64,000 nt of DNA, taken from assembly GCF_003589595.1 (NCBI RefSeq), contig NW_020653945.1, positions 9,239,505-9,303,504 on the forward strand, read 5' to 3'. The position numbers and the translations under genes were made by a program. The notes beneath the pieces are model-generated. The model was given only the letters and a program-made list of their open reading frames with translations. It did not search any database and had not been told where the DNA came from. The stretch comes from Hyposmocoma kahamanoa (lineage: Eukaryota; Arthropoda; Insecta; Lepidoptera; Cosmopterigidae). This document shows, piece after piece, positions 11,785-60,220 of the stretch. How positions within the stretch are numbered: position 1 is the stretch's first letter; every line of letters starts with the position of its first letter.

Positions 11785-11941
11785 TACAGAGGGCGCACTA
11801 TGAGTTCCCGGAACTGGTCACTTACATAAACAATATTTAAAAAGTAATTACAACATTTGCAAATGTAACTCTTTGTTTGTGGAATATAGTTTGTTTCTTC
11901 TAACTGTCACTTGTTTTTAGATTGTGGCGTCATTTTAGAAA

Positions 11942-13172
11942 TTGGTTGTCTACGTCACTATATATGTAACTCGTGAAAATTTTCGTAGTATGATCTACGA
12001 CTGTAAATGTAATTTAACAGCTCAGCGGAGCTTCGCTCGGCTTCAAACTGCTTTTGGCGATGAAGCACTATGCAAGACGACTATTTATAGCTGGTTTGCA
12101 GAATTCAAACGCGGTCGTGTGAATTTCAGTGACGAATTTCGTGATGGTCGCCCGTCCACTGCTGTGAACAGCAAAAACATCGTTGCAGGGTGCCGTATGA
12201 TCAAAACAGATAGTCATGTGACATACCATGAGATTCGGGAATCCTTAAGCATAGGCATGAGTTCAATACAATCAATACTACACAAACATTTGAGTGTGAA
12301 AAGCTGTTAGTTAGTAGCACAATTTGACTGAGACTCAAAACACGGATCGCGTCGCTTGGTGCAATGCCATGCTTACCAGATTCAACGAAGGGGCGTCAAA
12401 TTTGGTGTGGGACATGGTAACAGGTGACAAAACATGGATTTATAATTATTAATACAAAGAACGAACACTCAGAAAAAATACTCAGAAAAAATTCTTTCGA
12501 TCCGGTCGGATTCGAACCGACGTCTTCTTGCATACCGTGCCAGACGCTATACCAACTAAGCCACGGGACGAACCAACGGACCTCACGAATTCTTCTATGT
12601 GCTTGCGTCGTGTCTTTGTACTTGGTCTTTCAACGACTTTTTAGTCGTAGCGCCATCTATGAGAAATCCATGGATTTCTAGTTACGATCCCAAAGCAATA
12701 CAACAATCGGGCGTATGGATCTTTCGAGATGAGCCGAAACCAACCAAAGTGGCGCGCGTGTCAAGTGCATCTAAGCGGATGATTGCTTCTTTTTTTTTTA
12801 AATTGGACACGTGGCTACTGTTGCTTTGGAGAATCGTTGTACCGTGAATAGTGATTGGTATACGACCATTTGTTTACCAACCGTTAACGCCGTATCATCT
12901 TGCACCACGATAATGCCAGTTCTTACACGGCCAGACAGACAAATGAATTTTTGAAGGTGAACAACGTTGACCTTATGAGCCATCCCGCGTACAGTCCCGA
13001 CCTGGCACCTTGTGACTTTTATTTATTTCCAAAAATTAAGAACCAGTTACGCGGTCAACGATTTTCATCACCTGAAGAGGCTGTCAAAGCGTATGAAAAA
13101 TATGTTTCAGAGATTGTCAAGGAGGAGTGGCATAAATGTTTTCAAAATTGGTACATTCGTATGAAAACGTGA
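11942..13172 (+). pseudogene. mariner transposase, broken by SINE and frameshifts
   Basis: Cut-and-paste transposase of the D,D34D mariner type. The N-terminal helix-turn-helix region is visible (FARLQTAFGDEALCKTTIY, WFAEFKRGR, DEFRDGRPSTAV) to a stop at 12308-12310. The first catalytic Asp is in VTGDKTWIYNY, immediately before the SINE insertion (12442). Sequence resumes at 12678 with SYDPKAIQQSGVWIF and PKPTKVAR, then a frameshift in a T-run near 12790. The last part (12900-13172) has HHDNASSYTA and YSPDLAPCDFYLFP, with the two Asp residues 34 apart as expected. Stops, frameshifts and the insertion abolish function. Confidence 0.92.
12442..12668 (-). repeat. tRNA-derived SINE, family S, inserted in mariner
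   Basis: Flanked by perfect 9-bp duplications CATGGATTT (12433-12441 and 12669-12677). On the reverse strand it starts GATTTCTCATAGATGGCGC, has the A-box TGGCTTAGTTGGTATAGCG and the B-box GGTTCGAATCC, and ends TTTGTATTAATAATTAT. It gives the full-length reference for the SINE that the Transib-like element interrupts at 56382. Confidence 0.9.
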
Positions 13173-28305: not shown

Positions 28306-28679
28306 AACTAGGGTAAAATAACACACTGTGCGTAATGGCCTTTGATTTAGGTAAAGAGTACATGCGGCTTCTTAAACAAGCAGCAAGTATCAGCTATTAT
28401 TCGATTAGATACTATTGTTTTAGTCGTCTGTCTGAGTTCAAGGCGAGACGTGGTCAATTAGACACCGGATGAGGTAAGGTATTTTTTTTTGTTAACACTT
28501 ATCTTAACAAAACGGTCCTCGTTGGCCTTAGGAAGAGGTCATTTAGTATTTGAATAGAAAATCTAAGTATCCGTATAGCCGCTTAGGTAAACAGAGAATA
28601 GTTATGTGTATTGTCTTATTTTATATAATTCATTATTGTGGTTATACAGGTAAGGTACAATAAAAGCTTAAATACTAGG

Positions 28680-28800
28680 AAGTAAAACTATGATTTTTAA
28701 ATTATATGAATAAAATTGGGTCCCCGCGGCAAGGTGCCCAAGATGCTGGCAGAGTTCCCCCTTTGTAAGGCTATGCTAATGCGTTGGGCAAGGTACTGAA
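28680..28800 (+). repeat. Family O repeat
   Basis: Contains TTGGGTCCCCGCGGCAAGG, TGCCCAAGATGCTGGCAG and GTTCCCCCTTTGTAAGGC. The reverse complement of 59360-59445 is the same sequence. It may be a LINE 3' end. Confidence 0.65.
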
Positions 28801-40110: not shown

Positions 40111-40140
40111 TTAAAAAAGTTTTTTTTTAAATTAAAGTAT

Positions 40141-41223
40141 CTCTGGACCATCGTTGGCTATGGACCATCTATAGACCAAAGTTATGAGGGATCCTCTCCA
40201 AGCTTCCGGCATATGGTCTTCCCGGCCGCCTTTGTGAGTGTACGTGTCCTTGTTGACGGAGGCACTTCGCGGCTCGTGACAGTTAATGCTGGGGTGCCAC
40301 AGGGCTCCGTGCTGTCGCCCACGCTGTTCCTTCTGCATATCAATGACTTGTTGCCTTTTGGCAACATTCATTGCTATGCAGATGATAGCACAGTGCACGG
40401 TTGCTATTATAAGCAATCGTCAAGCAGCCGGGAGGACCCTGAGAGAAACCGGGACAAACTTGTCGGTGAGCTCAACCATGTTTTGGAACATATATCGTCG
40501 TGGGGCTCCCGAAACTTGGTAGAGTTCGACGCGAAGAAAACCCAAATATGCGCGTTCAGCTCCAAAAAATCCCCATTCCTTCCACTTCCCTATCTTCAGG
40601 GTACAATGCTGACGTTGCAGGACAAGCTCAGCCTACTGGGGATGAGCATCCGGAAGGACATGAACAACAAAGAGTATATCGACAGCGTCATCTGTACCGC
40701 GTCGCGCAAGCTTGGCATCCTGAACAAGGTGCACCGATTTTTTACTCCAGAGCTGCGATACCTGTTGTATAAAGCTCAGGTCCGAAGCAGCATGGAGTAC
40801 TGTTCGCACCTTTGGGACGGCTCTGCCAAGTACTTGCTCGATGCCCTAGATGGACTGCAGCGCTACGCCTTCCGTGTTGTCGACGATCCTCATGTAACTG
40901 AGCGTGCGGAGTCGTTACAGCTTCGCAGGGATATAGCGTCTCTTAGAGTATTCTATCGCCTGTACCACGGTGAGTGCTCTGAAGAGTTATTCAACCTTAT
41001 CCCTTCCTCTCCTTTCCATCAGCGGACCACCTGTGCCGGACTGCGTTGCCACAGTTGGACGGTCAGTTCAATACCGTCCCGCACTAAAAAGTTTGGCAAT
41101 TCGTTTTTATGTCGAACCATCAAATTGTGGAACCAACTCCCGGCGCATGTATACCCTCCCCTCTATAACATCGGGTCCTACAAACGTAGTGTGAAGAAGC
41201 ATTTGGCCAGACCGGCAAAATGA
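40141..41223 (+). CDS. Reverse transcriptase, C-terminal part of CR1/jockey-like LINE
   Basis: RNA-dependent DNA polymerase that copies the LINE transcript at the target site. The frame is open from the truncation at about 40141 to the TGA at 41221-41223. The first Met is at 40213. Palm motifs are intact: GVPQGSVLSPTLFLLHIND (about residues 30-48 from that Met) and CYADDST with both catalytic Asp residues (about 56-62). The C-terminal region follows (ARKLGILNKVHRFF-like stretch, YKAQVRSSMEYCSHLWDGSA, LWNQLPAHVYPP, RSVKKHLARPAK). The N-terminal endonuclease and fingers are missing, so it cannot act alone. No stop or frameshift breaks the remaining frame, suggesting a fairly recent insertion. 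Confidence 0.92.
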   Translation, partial: LWTIVGYGPSIDQSYEGSSPSFRHMVFPAAFVSVRVLVDGGTSRLVTVNAGVPQGSVLSPTLFLLHINDLLPFGNIHCYADDSTVHGCYYKQSSSSREDPERNRDKLVGELNHVLEHISSWGSRNLVEFDAKKTQICAFSSKKSPFLPLPYLQGTMLTLQDKLSLLGMSIRKDMNNKEYIDSVICTASRKLGILNKVHRFFTPELRYLLYKAQVRSSMEYCSHLWDGSAKYLLDALDGLQRYAFRVVDDPHVTERAESLQLRRDIASLRVFYRLYHGECSEELFNLIPSSPFHQRTTCAGLRCHSWTVSSIPSRTKKFGNSFLCRTIKLWNQLPAHVYPPLYNIGSYKRSVKKHLARPAK

Positions 41224-55017: not shown

Positions 55018-55835
55018 TGTCGTCTGAATCGGCCCTTATCCTATTTTTAAACTTCTTGCACAAGTATTTAGTGCAACGACATGCAAATATTACTGTTACG
55101 TGTTTCAAACGTGTTGTGCTCGCTTTAATGCCTTTTCAATCTAATTCATAAATAGTAATGGGCGTTAAGGGTTTCAATTAAATGGAACATTTTTATTACA
55201 CTTGGCATTGCAACTCTTCGTCTCTAAGCACCACCTTATTAAAGACGAGATTGATAATTTCAGTTTAACTATCTGCCTTAATATAGACTTGTTTATGCTA
55301 GTTGAAAACAATTTGCCTATCATCAAAGGCCCGGATCAGAATTGCTGTTGTAAAAGCTGATAAGTACAATTATTACCCCACCATATTGAGGCACTAGAAG
55401 GAGTTTAAATGACAAGACGAACATTGATACAAAAATACACCCTTTCACGGTTAAAAGGTAGCCTCTTAAATTATACTTGACAACTGTTCAAATATTATTA
55501 TTGATGCAAAGATTGAACAAACAAAGAAAGAATCCGTCGATCTGACTGGACTCGAACAAGTGTTTCTCCGACCCTACTAAGCTAAATAAGATTTAGAGTG
55601 TCTTGCAGATACCCTCGACACCATATCCAATCACTTTGCCAACCTCTTCGAAGAACTAAATCGGTAGAATTTAAAACTTATATATGTACATACATCAAAA
55701 GTGTCTAGGGATCAAGCACGTCTTTGAAAATCAGGTTTTTTAATTATTATATTTTCAACACCAATGGTTTTTGGTCAATTTCAAAATTTTAAAAATACGT
55801 AAGTAACTAAATAAATAATGTTATGTAGATAATTT
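55018..55835. other. Mostly unassigned
   Basis: A degraded tRNA-like piece near 55530-55595 (AATCCGTCGATCTGACTGG then ACTCGAACAAGTG) may be SINE S. Nothing else is recognised. Confidence 0.35.
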
Positions 55836-55840
55836 TAATT

Positions 55841-55975
55841 ATTAATACAAAGATCGCACACTTAGAAAAAAGCACAGGTTTATTTAGGTTTGCTAGGATA
55901 CGTCGGTTCGAAATCGGCCGGATCGACGGAAGTTTTTCTAAGTATTCGATCTTTGTATGAATAATTTATAACAAA
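55841..55975 (+). repeat. SINE S 3' half with an inverted tail copy
   Basis: B-box region GTCGGTTCGAAATCGGCCGG and tail CGATCTTTGTATGAATAATT. The left edge ATTATTAATACAAAGATCG is the complement of that tail, giving a small palindrome. Confidence 0.7.
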
Positions 55976-56185
55976 CTAGTGGAGTAATTTCACAAAAAAA
56001 TAATTGAATATCATGGTGGTGAAACATCCTAACATTAAATAAAAACTTAGATCATTTTATTTAACTTTAATGGGGTAATAAAAAAATATGTGTGTAATAT
56101 AAGTAGTGTATAATGTCGACGTACGTACGTACGTGGAGATTGTATTCGAAAAATATTAAAACAAAATAGGTATCATTGTTATACT

Positions 56186-56241
56186 TAGTTATTAATACAA
56201 AGCTAAGAAAAAATCTTTCGATCCAGCTGGGTTCGATCCAT
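56186..56241 (-). repeat. SINE S, 3' half, reverse orientation
   Basis: The reverse strand has TGGATCGAACCCAGCTGGATC and the tail CTTTGTATTAATAACTAA. It lies head-to-head with the next copy. Confidence 0.75.
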
Positions 56242-56382
56242 TTGGCACAGATGGCTCTACGGCAAAAAGTTATTAAAAACCAAAAAATCTGCAACAAGCA
56301 CATAGAAAAATTCGTAAGGTCCGCTTATTCGTTCCGTGGCATAGTTGGCGTAGCGTCTGACACGGTTTGCTGGAACACGTTG
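56242..56382 (+). repeat. SINE S, 5' half (interrupted by Transib-like element)
   Basis: ACAGATGGCTCTACGGC, CAAGCACATAGAAAAATTCG and the A-box CCGTGGCATAGTTGGCGTAG align with the full SINE at 12442-12668. It stops at ACACGTTG, just before the B-box; the rest is at 59290. Confidence 0.9.
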
Positions 56383-56410
56383 CACTGTGATTCCCCCATA
56401 GGCCATAAAT
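56383..56410 (+). repeat. Left terminus: heptamer, 12-bp spacer, 9-mer
   Basis: CACTGTG (56383-56389), 12 bases (56390-56401), GCCATAAAT (56402-56410), followed by an A-run. Positions 1-3 and 6-7 of the heptamer agree with the vertebrate signal CACAGTG. Confidence 0.75.
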
Positions 56411-56484
56411 CAAAAAAAATCATTGGCTTATCCCGGTTAGATCAACTCACTAAGTTAGTAACTAGTTAACAAGCTTCCAAAAAC

Positions 56485-56520
56485 TATAAATATCAATGTA
56501 ATTAGGTCACGTTATCATTC
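56485..56520 (+). promoter_or_regulatory. TATA box and arthropod initiator
   Basis: TATAAATA at 56485 and TCATTC at 56515-56520 match the arthropod initiator TCA(G/T)T(C/T). They lie about 32 bp apart, the normal TATA-to-start distance. Transcription from A 56517 would give a 129-nt leader before the exon 1 ATG. Confidence 0.6.
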
Positions 56521-56645
56521 ACTTTTGTGCATCGGAAGTGAGCGCATCGCGAGACTAATTATCACCACGTGTGAGTCATCGAAACTTAATCACTTTGTTT
56601 TTGAGTGTCACTATTCCAAATCAAGTGTTTACGTGTTGTGAAAGC

Positions 56646-58918
56646 ATGGAGATCCAAGAGCATGGTATGTACTTTTATTATCAATTTTTTTTAATTTTTT
56701 TTATGCATATTTTTTTTATATATAAATTTTTTATTGAAGGCAGTTTTTTGGTGAAAATTTTTGGCATAACTTAATTTCCTTTAGACCTACAACTTTTGGC
56801 TGCGCTGAGCTGCACCTGAGGTATATGGTTTTTGAATAAGGAGTATGTCCTTATTAAGAGCTATAAGTTTCATTTGCATCTTGCTGCCTCTTCTTGGCTT
56901 AAAGGGGTGTCAAAGTATGCATGTCCATAGTATTGAATTTTTAATTTTTTTTTAAGTTCAGCTTTCATATTGTTTTAGGTACATTTTTCAAATGTTCTGT
57001 ATCGAGGATGACAATTTTTGATATTTGGCACTCTAAAGTGGGTAATCCAAATGAAAAAATGCAACACGTCCTGAGCACTTTGACCGAAACATCATCCCTT
57101 TCTGACGACATCGAAAATATTGATTTAGAGACTTTAAGCCTTAAAATTAAGAATATTTGTAAACGAATTTCCCACTACTGGGCAAAGTCGAATCGTACTA
57201 GATCTAAATTCTTAGAAAAATATTCAGATTGGCTGCATGTCGTTGAAAATATTGATGTACAGCGAACTGAGTTACGTGTATCTCAGAGCTTTGACGAAGT
57301 TAAACCATCAACTTCTTCATCGCATGGCCGTCCGAGAATTAACTTTGACGACACCAGTAAACGTACAAAAAGGAGAAGATTGGCTAGTTTGTCTAACCAA
57401 GACCCTTCTCTTGTACAGTCATTGCTCAATGCGTCCGATAGCTTGTCTTGTCCTGAAATCGATTCTAGCGAAGTTTTATCGCTCATTGTTGAAGCTCAGT
57501 TAACTCGACATCAATATATATTAGTAAAGAAATTTATAGACAATAAGTTTTCAAAAACCATTTTCCCATCTTACCAAAGTGTCGTGGAATCTAAAAAACA
57601 CTGTTATCCTTCAGATATTACTGTTACAGAATCATCCGCCGAAGTCGAACTTCAAAGTTTATTAGATCATACTGCCAATCGGATTCTCAAGTCTCAAAAA
57701 GATGTTTTGGATAGTGTACCTAATGAGTCTCTAGATAAGATATCTTTGATAGGGAAATGGGGTTTCGATGGCAGTACAGGGCATTCAGAATATAAACAGT
57801 GTTTTTCTGACTCCACTCTTGAAGACAGTAGCCTGTTTGTTACTTCGTATGTGCCACTTCAGCTTGTTTTGACAACAGATAACAAAGAAAATTCAGTAGT
57901 TTTGTGGAAAAATCCTCGTCCTTCATCAACTCAATACTGTCGTCCCATACGCCTCCGATATTTGAAGGAATCGACTGCAGTGTCAGTTGAGGAAGAAGCT
58001 CATTTTAAAGATAAAATAAGGAACTTGCAGCCTACTGTTTTCAAGGAAGAAGATCGCGAATATCGCATTACTCATTGTTTGCAACTTACTATGGTAGATG
58101 GTAAAGTGTGTAATGCACTTAGTGGTGTTTCTTCATCAAAATGTTTTATTTGTAACGCCTTGCCCAGTGAAATGAACAAAATTGACGAATGTTTAAATAA
58201 GGAAGTCGATGAGAGTAAATATGAATTTGGTTTATCACCTCTTCACGCGTTAATACGTTTTTTTGAATATTTTGTTCATGTCGCGTACAAGTTAGATGTT
58301 AGGAAGTGGCAAGCTAGGTCCGCTAATGACAAAATGCTTGTTGCTGCAAAAAAATCATATGTTCAGACTCAATTTAGAGAAAGATTAGGGCTTATAGTGG
58401 ATAAGCCTAAAAGTGGCGGAAGCGGAACATCAAACGATGGTAATACAGCCAGGCGGTTTTTCTCGAATTCAGAAATTTCCGCTGAAATTACTGGGATCAA
58501 GAAGGATCTCCTAGATCGTTGCTGGATCATCCTTCAATGTTTAAATTCGGGATATAATATTAATAAGACGAACTTCGAAGAGTTCGCTTTAGAGACGGCT
58601 CGGCAGTTAGTTGCCGAGTATCCGTGGTATAACATGCCTGCTTCCGTTCACAAAGTTCTAATTCATGGTGCTAATGTTATAGATTACGGTTTGTTGTCAA
58701 TCGGAGAGTTGTCTGAAGAAGCAGCTGAAGCGACTAACAAATACATCAAGTCTTTTAGAAAAAATCATACGCGTAAAATGAGTCGCATTGTGACCAACAC
58801 AGATTTAGTAAATAGGCTGCTTCTTCATTCAGATCCCTTCATAACAGGTCTACGAAAGTTACCTGTTAAAAAAAAAGGTGTACTGTCAAAAGCTGTATTA
58901 GACTTGTTATGTATTTAA
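56646..58918 (+). CDS. RAG1-core/Transib-type DDE transposase (two exons)
   Basis: Cleaves at its terminal repeats and inserts the element by DDE chemistry, acting in the nucleus. The 636-codon frame opens with ATG 57008, but upstream sequence stays open to a strong acceptor (TTTTAG/GT at 56978/56979). An ATG exon at 56646-56664 (MEIQEH plus one base) ends at a perfect donor G/GTATGT. Joined in frame, the protein is 652 residues. In that numbering: a basic KRTKRRR stretch near 133-140 (nuclear signal), first catalytic Asp in KWGFDGSTGHSEYKQ (D270), second in LTMVDGKV (D380), zinc-binding pair CFIC (C395, C398), NDGNTARRFF (about 492-501) matching RAG1 NGNFARKL, HKVLIH (H564, H569) matching the second zinc pair, and catalytic Glu in EEAAEATNK (E590). 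The Asp-Asp spacing of 110 and the His-to-Glu spacing agree closely with RAG1. No stop, frameshift or missing residue is seen. RAG2, RING and other RAG1 N-terminal domains are absent. Confidence 0.93.
56665..56978 (+). other. Intron of the transposase gene, 314 nt
   Basis: Donor GTATGT at 56665, acceptor CATATTGTTTTAG ending at 56978 with a T-rich tract before it. The phase (one base before, two after) preserves the frame. Confidence 0.75.
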
Positions 58919-59213
58919 AGTTAATATTGTTGAGATTTAATGTATTTTGGTATAATTTGTGTTTTGTTTGTATTTTGTAAAATGAACTTTTTTATGTATT
59001 TTTATTGTTTTAATTTATTCATTTGTGGTTATTGTTAATACAAATAATCATTATTTACACAGTTTTACCATTAAAAGTCGCAGTATAAAATGTTTTAGAT
59101 ACATCGTCTAAAAACAAAATTACTGCGAGACATTTTTACACCTAAATATTGTCAAATATTTTTTAAAATGTATAATTTTATTAATTTACGTTTACCTAAT
59201 CATATTTTAACGT

Positions 59214-59219
59214 AATAAA
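59214..59219 (+). terminator. Polyadenylation signal
   Basis: AATAAA lies inside the element, about 300 bp after the stop codon and just before the right terminal repeat. Confidence 0.55.
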
Positions 59220-59251
59220 ATAAAAAAATAATAATAATTTCGGAGTTACGT

Positions 59252-59289
59252 ATTTATGACCGCCTTAGTATGGAGCGTGAATCACCGTG
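59252..59289 (-). repeat. Right terminus: heptamer, 22-bp spacer, 9-mer
   Basis: On the reverse strand CACGGTG (59289-59283), 22 bases (59282-59261), GTCATAAAT (59260-59252). The 9-mer differs from the left one at a single base. Confidence 0.75.
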
Positions 59290-59352
59290 CGTTGGATCGA
59301 ATCCAGCCGGATCTAATGATTTTTTCTTGGTGTCTGATTTTAGTATTAATAA
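59290..59352 (+). repeat. SINE S, 3' half (after the Transib-like element)
   Basis: Starts with the duplicated CGTTG, then GATCGAATCCAGCCGGATC (B-box) and ends TTAGTATTAATAATTAT. It continues the SINE broken at 56382. Confidence 0.9.
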
Positions 59353-59359
59353 TTATAAC

Positions 59360-59445
59360 AAACACATTAGCATAGCAATACAAAGGGGGAACGCTGCCAG
59401 ATCTTGGGCACCTTGCCGCGGGGACCCAATTTTATTCATATAATT
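59360..59445 (-). repeat. Family O repeat, reverse copy
   Basis: Complement of 28680-28800 (GGGGGAACGCTGCCAGATC, TTGCCGCGGGGACCCAA). Confidence 0.65.
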
Positions 59446-59449
59446 TAAA

Positions 59450-60220
59450 AATCCTAGTTTTATTTTCTTGTAGTTAAGCTCTTTTTGTCTTTTTTTTAAA
59501 TAGGTACCTAAATACTCTTCCTTACAATATTTAAAAAAATGATATCAGTTAGTAACAATAATATATTGTTAATTTAAAAAGGCTTCTTTTCTCATTTCCA
59601 CATGAGGTGTTTACCTGTAATTATTTGTGCATTAAATTTAAAACCCCAAATCAATGTACCTAATAAATAAGTCACAATAGCTTAAATTGAAAAAAAAAAA
59701 AAATTGTAAATGAATATTATTCGTTCATTCACTCATTTAATAGTTCTACGATTCTCAATAGGCACAAGCAGTTCACTGATTTAAGAATATAAGTTGACTT
59801 ATATAAACCGTTCAGCATTTCAACCCCATAAAAAACGGAAGTTTAAAATTTGATTAAAGAGAATACTAAGATTTAAGTTTAACGTTTTGAAGTTAAGTGG
59901 TACGACATTGAGTTTGCTCCAACGATTGGCTTCACGCCAAATGATTACGTTCTAACTGCAAAACTGTTAGTAAACGCCCAACTTGAATTTCAACGGACAC
60001 CCGCAGTGTGGAAACATCGATCTCAAAACACAGTTACATAGAAAGCTTTAACTTTCTGCGTTTTATCTGATTCTTTTTTATGATTTCGAAGGGTCGTTTT
60101 AGTAAAAGTTTTTCGTTTTAATGAATGAAGTTAACCCAGGCGCGGGATAACCAACAACCTGTTTGTTTTTTTTTTTACTTATAAATTCTATTAAGTAGTT
60201 TTGGGAAATTCTTTCTTCGA
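59450..60220. other. AT-rich, nothing recognised
   Basis: No frame or repeat match. An A-run at 59689-59702. Confidence 0.45.

Follow-up and report, generated by a model that had tools for sequence, protein, structure and literature searches.

The window analysed here, a 64,000-nucleotide stretch of the lepidopteran Hyposmocoma kahamanoa (contig NW_020653945.1, positions 9,239,505 to 9,303,504 of the forward strand), contains at 56383..59289 a complete Transib element, one of a family that has spread very recently in the host genome and has many open frames. We are confident that it is an autonomous cut-and-paste DNA transposon of this type, using 5-bp targets of the form C-R-N-Y-G and caught in a recent burst; anatomy, family, copies, target duplications and the star-like pattern of the burst are the directly observed part of this reading. 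The element's single gene would encode a RAG1-core-like DDE transposase that binds both ends, each starting with CAC. Excision, by analogy with RAG and with HzTransib of Helicoverpa zea, would proceed by a nick and a flank-side hairpin, insertion would fall on GC-rich C-R-N-Y-G targets and create 5-bp duplications, and by the same analogy transposition would still be ongoing.

Transibs are related to the enzyme by which antibody genes are cut and joined, and RAG1-like transposons that have amplified recently and keep open frames help in studying the origin of V(D)J recombination. The present family is a further Transib, and its history is otherwise that of an ordinary, if fresh, Transib burst; what it offers is dozens of natural open-frame copies together with one tight set of ends.

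Element, transposase and family

The features of the element are as follows:

56383..59289, plus strand: complete Transib element, 2907 bp, defined by its ends, by the duplicated target and by a further 43 fetched copies that extend to both ends
56378..56382, no strand: left target-site duplication CGTTG
59290..59294, no strand: right target-site duplication CGTTG
56383..56393, plus strand: left terminal inverted repeat CACTGTGATTC, with a start like the heptamer of a recombination signal sequence (RSS)
59279..59289, minus strand: right terminal inverted repeat CACGGTGATTC
56485..56492, plus strand: TATA-box-like TATAAATA (motif match only)
56646..56664, plus strand: exon 1, with the first 19 coding nt, ATG at 56646 (GT-AG splice model)
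56665..56978, plus strand: GT-AG intron, 314 nt
56979..58918, plus strand: exon 2 of the transposase, including the stop codon
57932..57934, plus strand: codon 325, CAA (Gln), private to the window copy
59214..59224, plus strand: overlapping poly(A) signals AATAAA at 59214 and 59219 (motif match only)

The outer 11 bp of the two ends (CACTGTGATTC and CACGGTGATTC) are identical at 10 of 11 positions. Farther in, similarity is at chance level (as high a score is reached by 720 of 5000 shuffles and by 619 of 5000 random window pairs), so that the terminal repeats proposed by the initial annotation stand for the outermost bases and not beyond them; the CGTTG duplication that it had also named is present on both sides. 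The heptamers, CACTGTG and CACGGTG, each match CACAGTG at 6/7 positions. A scheme of asymmetric bipartite ends (CATAAAT, with an exact 10-bp offset between ends) was rejected, being matched by those 720 of 5000 shuffles.

Splicing joins the long open frame at 56945-58918 to exon 1, giving a protein of 652 residues. The exon junction chosen is the likeliest; four other splice choices also keep the frame. Among 47 copies fetched from the host genome the exon 1 donor reads GTATGT in 42 and GTATGC in one, and was not located in four. Relatives support the two-exon model: in P0007, P0024 and P0027 the homology extends to the N-terminal side of the first exon 2 Met, and two of the three, P0024 and P0027, lack a Met there.

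The unbroken transposase and the motifs listed in the initial annotation are all there as described: a 314-nt GT-AG intron and 652 residues; catalytic D270, D380 and E590, in register with D126, D225 and E436 of HzTransib (numbering of PMC6941560); the zinc pairs C395-x2-C398 and H564-x4-H569, all four residues of which occur in 31/31 aligned rows; and the NxGNxARR block, as NDGNTARR starting at residue 492. An initiator-like TCATTC at 56515, also a motif match only, lies 30 bp downstream of TATAAATA, and together with the TATA-like box and AATAAA it would fit a complete gene. Among open reading frames (ORFs) of at least 60 aa lying wholly within the element, none other than the transposase exceeds 95 aa, in keeping with the earlier statement that no RAG2-like gene is carried, although a dedicated RAG2 profile search was not made. 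An Rfam search of 55700-59700 (E 0.1) gave no match.

HzTransib leads other families by far in both sequence and predicted-fold comparison, with 37-41% identity; the RAG1/RAG2 recombinase and ProtoRAG (RAGL) reach 12-19% in their structure matches. Sequence and predicted fold together establish the kinship with Transib and RAG1 that had been proposed from the alignment with the RAG1 core, and the profile search likewise places the protein with Transib rather than in an unrelated DDE family. The Pfam RAG1 match is below its curated cut-off (18.6 versus 25 bits), and NCBIfam gave no match at E 0.1. That the protein instead belongs to another DDE family (P element, hAT) or to a RAGL/ProtoRAG element we regard as extremely improbable: besides the lead of HzTransib in sequence and fold, hAT and P elements make 8-bp target duplications, whereas those found here are of 5 bp, in 43 of the 47 fetched copies, and no ORF in the element is big enough for the RAG2-like protein of a RAGL element.

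HzTransib (PDB 6pqn and others) has the same RAG1-like core, DDE residues, zinc and C-terminal layout, the same 5-bp duplications and a single gene. It differs in being 3518 bp long with long terminal inverted repeats and a deduced 489-residue protein (PMC1852546), whereas the repeats of the window element are 11 bp. RAG1/RAG2 and ProtoRAG are alike in the RNase H core fold, heptamer-like ends and GC-biased 5-bp duplications (PMC8289069, PMC7204232); the window element differs in having no room for a RAG2-like gene.

Protein relatives numbered 618, and the statements that follow concern the best 120 of them. P0001 is near-identical to the window protein, which lacks one residue and shows L/I and Q/R differences. 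P0002 to P0007 stand at 60-86%. The closest named relatives are Drosophila ananassae LOC123257406 (P0030; 57% identity over 81% of the query) and D. yakuba LOC120322169 (P0040; 50% over 75%); a hoverfly protein (Episyrphus) is at 45% and a moth protein (Amyelois) at 42%. The two Drosophila genes come from other hosts, have shorter gene models and were compared as proteins only. The tree joins the window copy first to P0001 (100/100) and next to P0002 (100/99); the fork adding P0003 is weaker (92/79) and that adding P0004 is 100/100. Viral contigs searched with the protein and the alignment, and prokaryote contigs searched with the alignment, yielded no relative; comparison at the DNA level is therefore confined to the host.

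Two observations on these relatives stand apart. P0001, which belongs to another data set, has DSSIS at a place where 45 of the 47 fetched host copies have DSLS (two were not readable); judged by sequence, it may be this element as it occurs in a different population or species. Among P0031, P0039, P0045 and P0111, Asn replaces the second catalytic Asp in three (TMINGKVC) and the first in one; these may be dead copies or variants.

Copies and target sites in the host genome

The host assembly (728 Mb in 2727 contigs) was searched with the protein and with the left-end DNA. In the protein search 67 of 1021 candidates were scored, all at 99-100% and on 44 contigs, spanning residues 1-657 of a 657-residue frame (one spans 2-657). 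The left-end search scored 40 of 136 candidates, all at 100% over 260 bp, and 17 of the 40 lie away from the 67 protein-matched places. Nearly identical copies or pieces are thus present at at least 84 places (67 + 17), at differing positions rather than at the one shared fixed position that the initial annotation had named as a refuting outcome.

We fetched 47 of the 67 protein-matched copies. Both ends are reached in 44 of them; L008 is cut short by the beginning of its contig, L020 is missing its 5′ part and L035 its last 10 bp. Perfect 5-bp duplications, with the same end bases, flank 43 of the 47, more than chance would produce, in 27 different sequences. Their consensus (n = 43) is C (41/43), A or G (38/43), N, T or C (36/43), G (38/43), hence C-R-N-Y-G, and the 5 bp adjoining the ends have a GC content of ~61%, versus 36% at 200-800 bp.

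Segmental duplication or haplotype redundancy in the assembly, rather than transposition, might also multiply near-identical copies, and the 2727 contigs, the presence of some copies on small ones and seven flank pairs among the 47 loci that share 167-193 bp at 81-99% identity speak for it. The shared stretches are short, though, and since they lie at different distances from the junction, segmental duplication does not look like the source of the copies; in no pair of loci does the flank similarity run up to the element, and the target duplications of most loci differ. We consider this origin very improbable and retain transposition.

The window copy interrupts a repeat that has an uninserted relative in the same window:

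56240..56382, plus strand: left part of the interrupted tRNA-like (SINE-like, short interspersed element) repeat
59295..59358, plus strand: right part of the same repeat; the joined flanks align across the junction with 12440-12667 (minus strand)
12440..12667, minus strand: uninserted relative, a paralogous empty site, 73% identical

ARAGORN called a tRNA-Thr at 12496-12571, within the uninserted relative, and no tRNA on the joined window flanks; the label ‘tRNA-like’ therefore rests on the relative. L006 also sits in a repeat, and an uninserted relative (L050, 85%) crosses its junction with the target bases present once. At L043 the junction is spanned, without the insert, by many matches at 76-88%, as read from the match table only. 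Joined-flank searches, with 40 of 3219 candidates scored for L006 and 40 of 1914 for L043, returned the two halves of each locus and paralogous repeats. The check for empty sites suggested earlier thus succeeded for paralogous sites (12440-12667 and L050) and found no allelic one for L006 or L043.

Age, selection and present mobility

Divergence was measured on 45 aligned copies, namely the 44 that reach both ends and L035. Substitution divergence has a median of 0.24% and a maximum of 0.53%, with a mean of 3.6 substitutions from the majority sequence, and 137 variants are singletons while only 6 are shared. This pattern demonstrates a very recent, star-like burst. The lepidopteran mutation rate is near 3e-9 per site and generation, which puts the burst at some hundred thousand generations ago, or less if assembly errors contribute to the differences. 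The initial annotation had judged the copy young, and the at least 84 places, the near identity of copies and their differing target duplications agree. The rate of change at coding sites is about half that at other sites, and changes of an amino acid or to a stop make up 49 of 79 versus 77% expected (p 0.003), a low share that suggests selection for a working transposase.

Several observations weigh against this picture. Assembly errors may contribute to the 0.24% divergence, and the selection test is biased in that copies were picked by protein score. The joined flanks searched for an allelic empty site, which was not found, are those of L006 and L043 only, both in repeats. L009 (G000:C647:13848654-13853624) has no matching duplication despite both CAC ends. 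Stops interrupt 4 of the 67 scored frames, and of the 17 extra places all three copies fetched have broken frames, so that the protein list overstates the intact share; two of these three have matched duplications and the third runs beyond the fetched stretch. As a separate observation on L009, the sequence just inside its right end differs, as it would after the rebuilding or capture of one end.

The broken frames, together with the 43 of 45 aligned copies that stand 1-8 substitutions off the majority, would also accord with a burst that is over, the family having amplified recently and now being silenced, with copies starting to decay. This account shares the family assignment with ours and differs solely on current mobility. 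Set against it are one pair of copies without substitutions between them (their lengths differ by indels), two copies without substitution relative to the majority, and the 63 of 67 scored frames that have no stop. We hold an ended burst to be a real but doubtful possibility; on the analogy of related systems, the family is likely mobile at present.

The window copy itself may be a weak source of enzyme. It carries G>A at 57933, seen in 1/45 aligned copies and giving R325Q; residue 325 is R in 30/30 other aligned relatives and M in HzTransib. Its intron also departs from the majority by a 1-bp insertion and by one substitution, and two further changes in the copy are read as synonymous. To judge from R325Q, its own transposase may be weakened and the copy may rely on its sister copies, which could supply the enzyme.

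Transib1 of Drosophila melanogaster and D. simulans, 3,030 bp long, is likewise a Transib with a documented invasion (2013-2016; PMC12230796). It has a different host and is likened here by description; on that footing the burst of the window family is comparable to the invasion in D. melanogaster.

N-terminal segment, left end and neighbouring repeats

A GRP motif at residue 123 is conserved among rows with a residue there (R 30/30, G 29/30, P 28/30). Its region is collinear with the stretch of RAG1 from the nonamer-binding domain (NBD) to the dimerization and DNA-binding domain (DDBD), with a weak match (14.6 bits, E 0.075 alone); a GRP segment equivalent to the NBD has been reported for both Transib subgroups (PMC9435367). 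The alignment with HzTransib begins only at residue 175 of the 657-residue frame, and HzTransib accordingly seems to lack an equivalent of the N-terminal part, including the GRP segment, so that an NBD role in a RAG2-free enzyme becomes testable in the present family. Subgroup II Transibs have lost the alpha11-alpha12 RAG2-binding region and have a CTT2 tail (PMC9435367); the predicted model, compared as a whole, aligns with HzTransib through to the C-terminus.

At the left end one further feature is suggestive only:

56413..56421, plus strand: nonamer-like AAAAAAATC, agreeing with the nonamer of an RSS at 7/9 positions and spaced exactly 23 bp from the left heptamer

The stretch is A-rich, and matches as good begin at 0.3% of positions in the window. 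At the right end the corresponding places, at 12 and 23 bp, reach just 3/9 and 5/9. We therefore treat AAAAAAATC as a lead only. Hztransib ends are stated to have little or no nonamer similarity (PMC8289069). It is unlikely that the left end is a 23-RSS-like bipartite signal whose AAAAAAATC is read by the GRP segment, with the right end lacking a nonamer; if true, a recently amplified insect transposon would combine nonamer reading and end asymmetry without RAG2.

The surroundings hold other repeats. At 55837-55966 lies a fold-back element with 34-nt arms, 91% complementary, whose sequence is related to the interrupted tRNA-like repeat. Past that repeat, the right flank (59361-59488) is 91% identical to the inverse-oriented 28657-28785, and by their sequence these repeats are read as nested insertions. 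For a reverse transcriptase of a long interspersed element (LINE) in the window, the best named relatives are from Chilo suppressalis and other Lepidoptera, which would make a moth or butterfly the likely host. A mariner-type transposase remnant (HTH_48) occupies 11939-12310, and a reverse transcriptase remnant of LINE type occupies 40111-41223.
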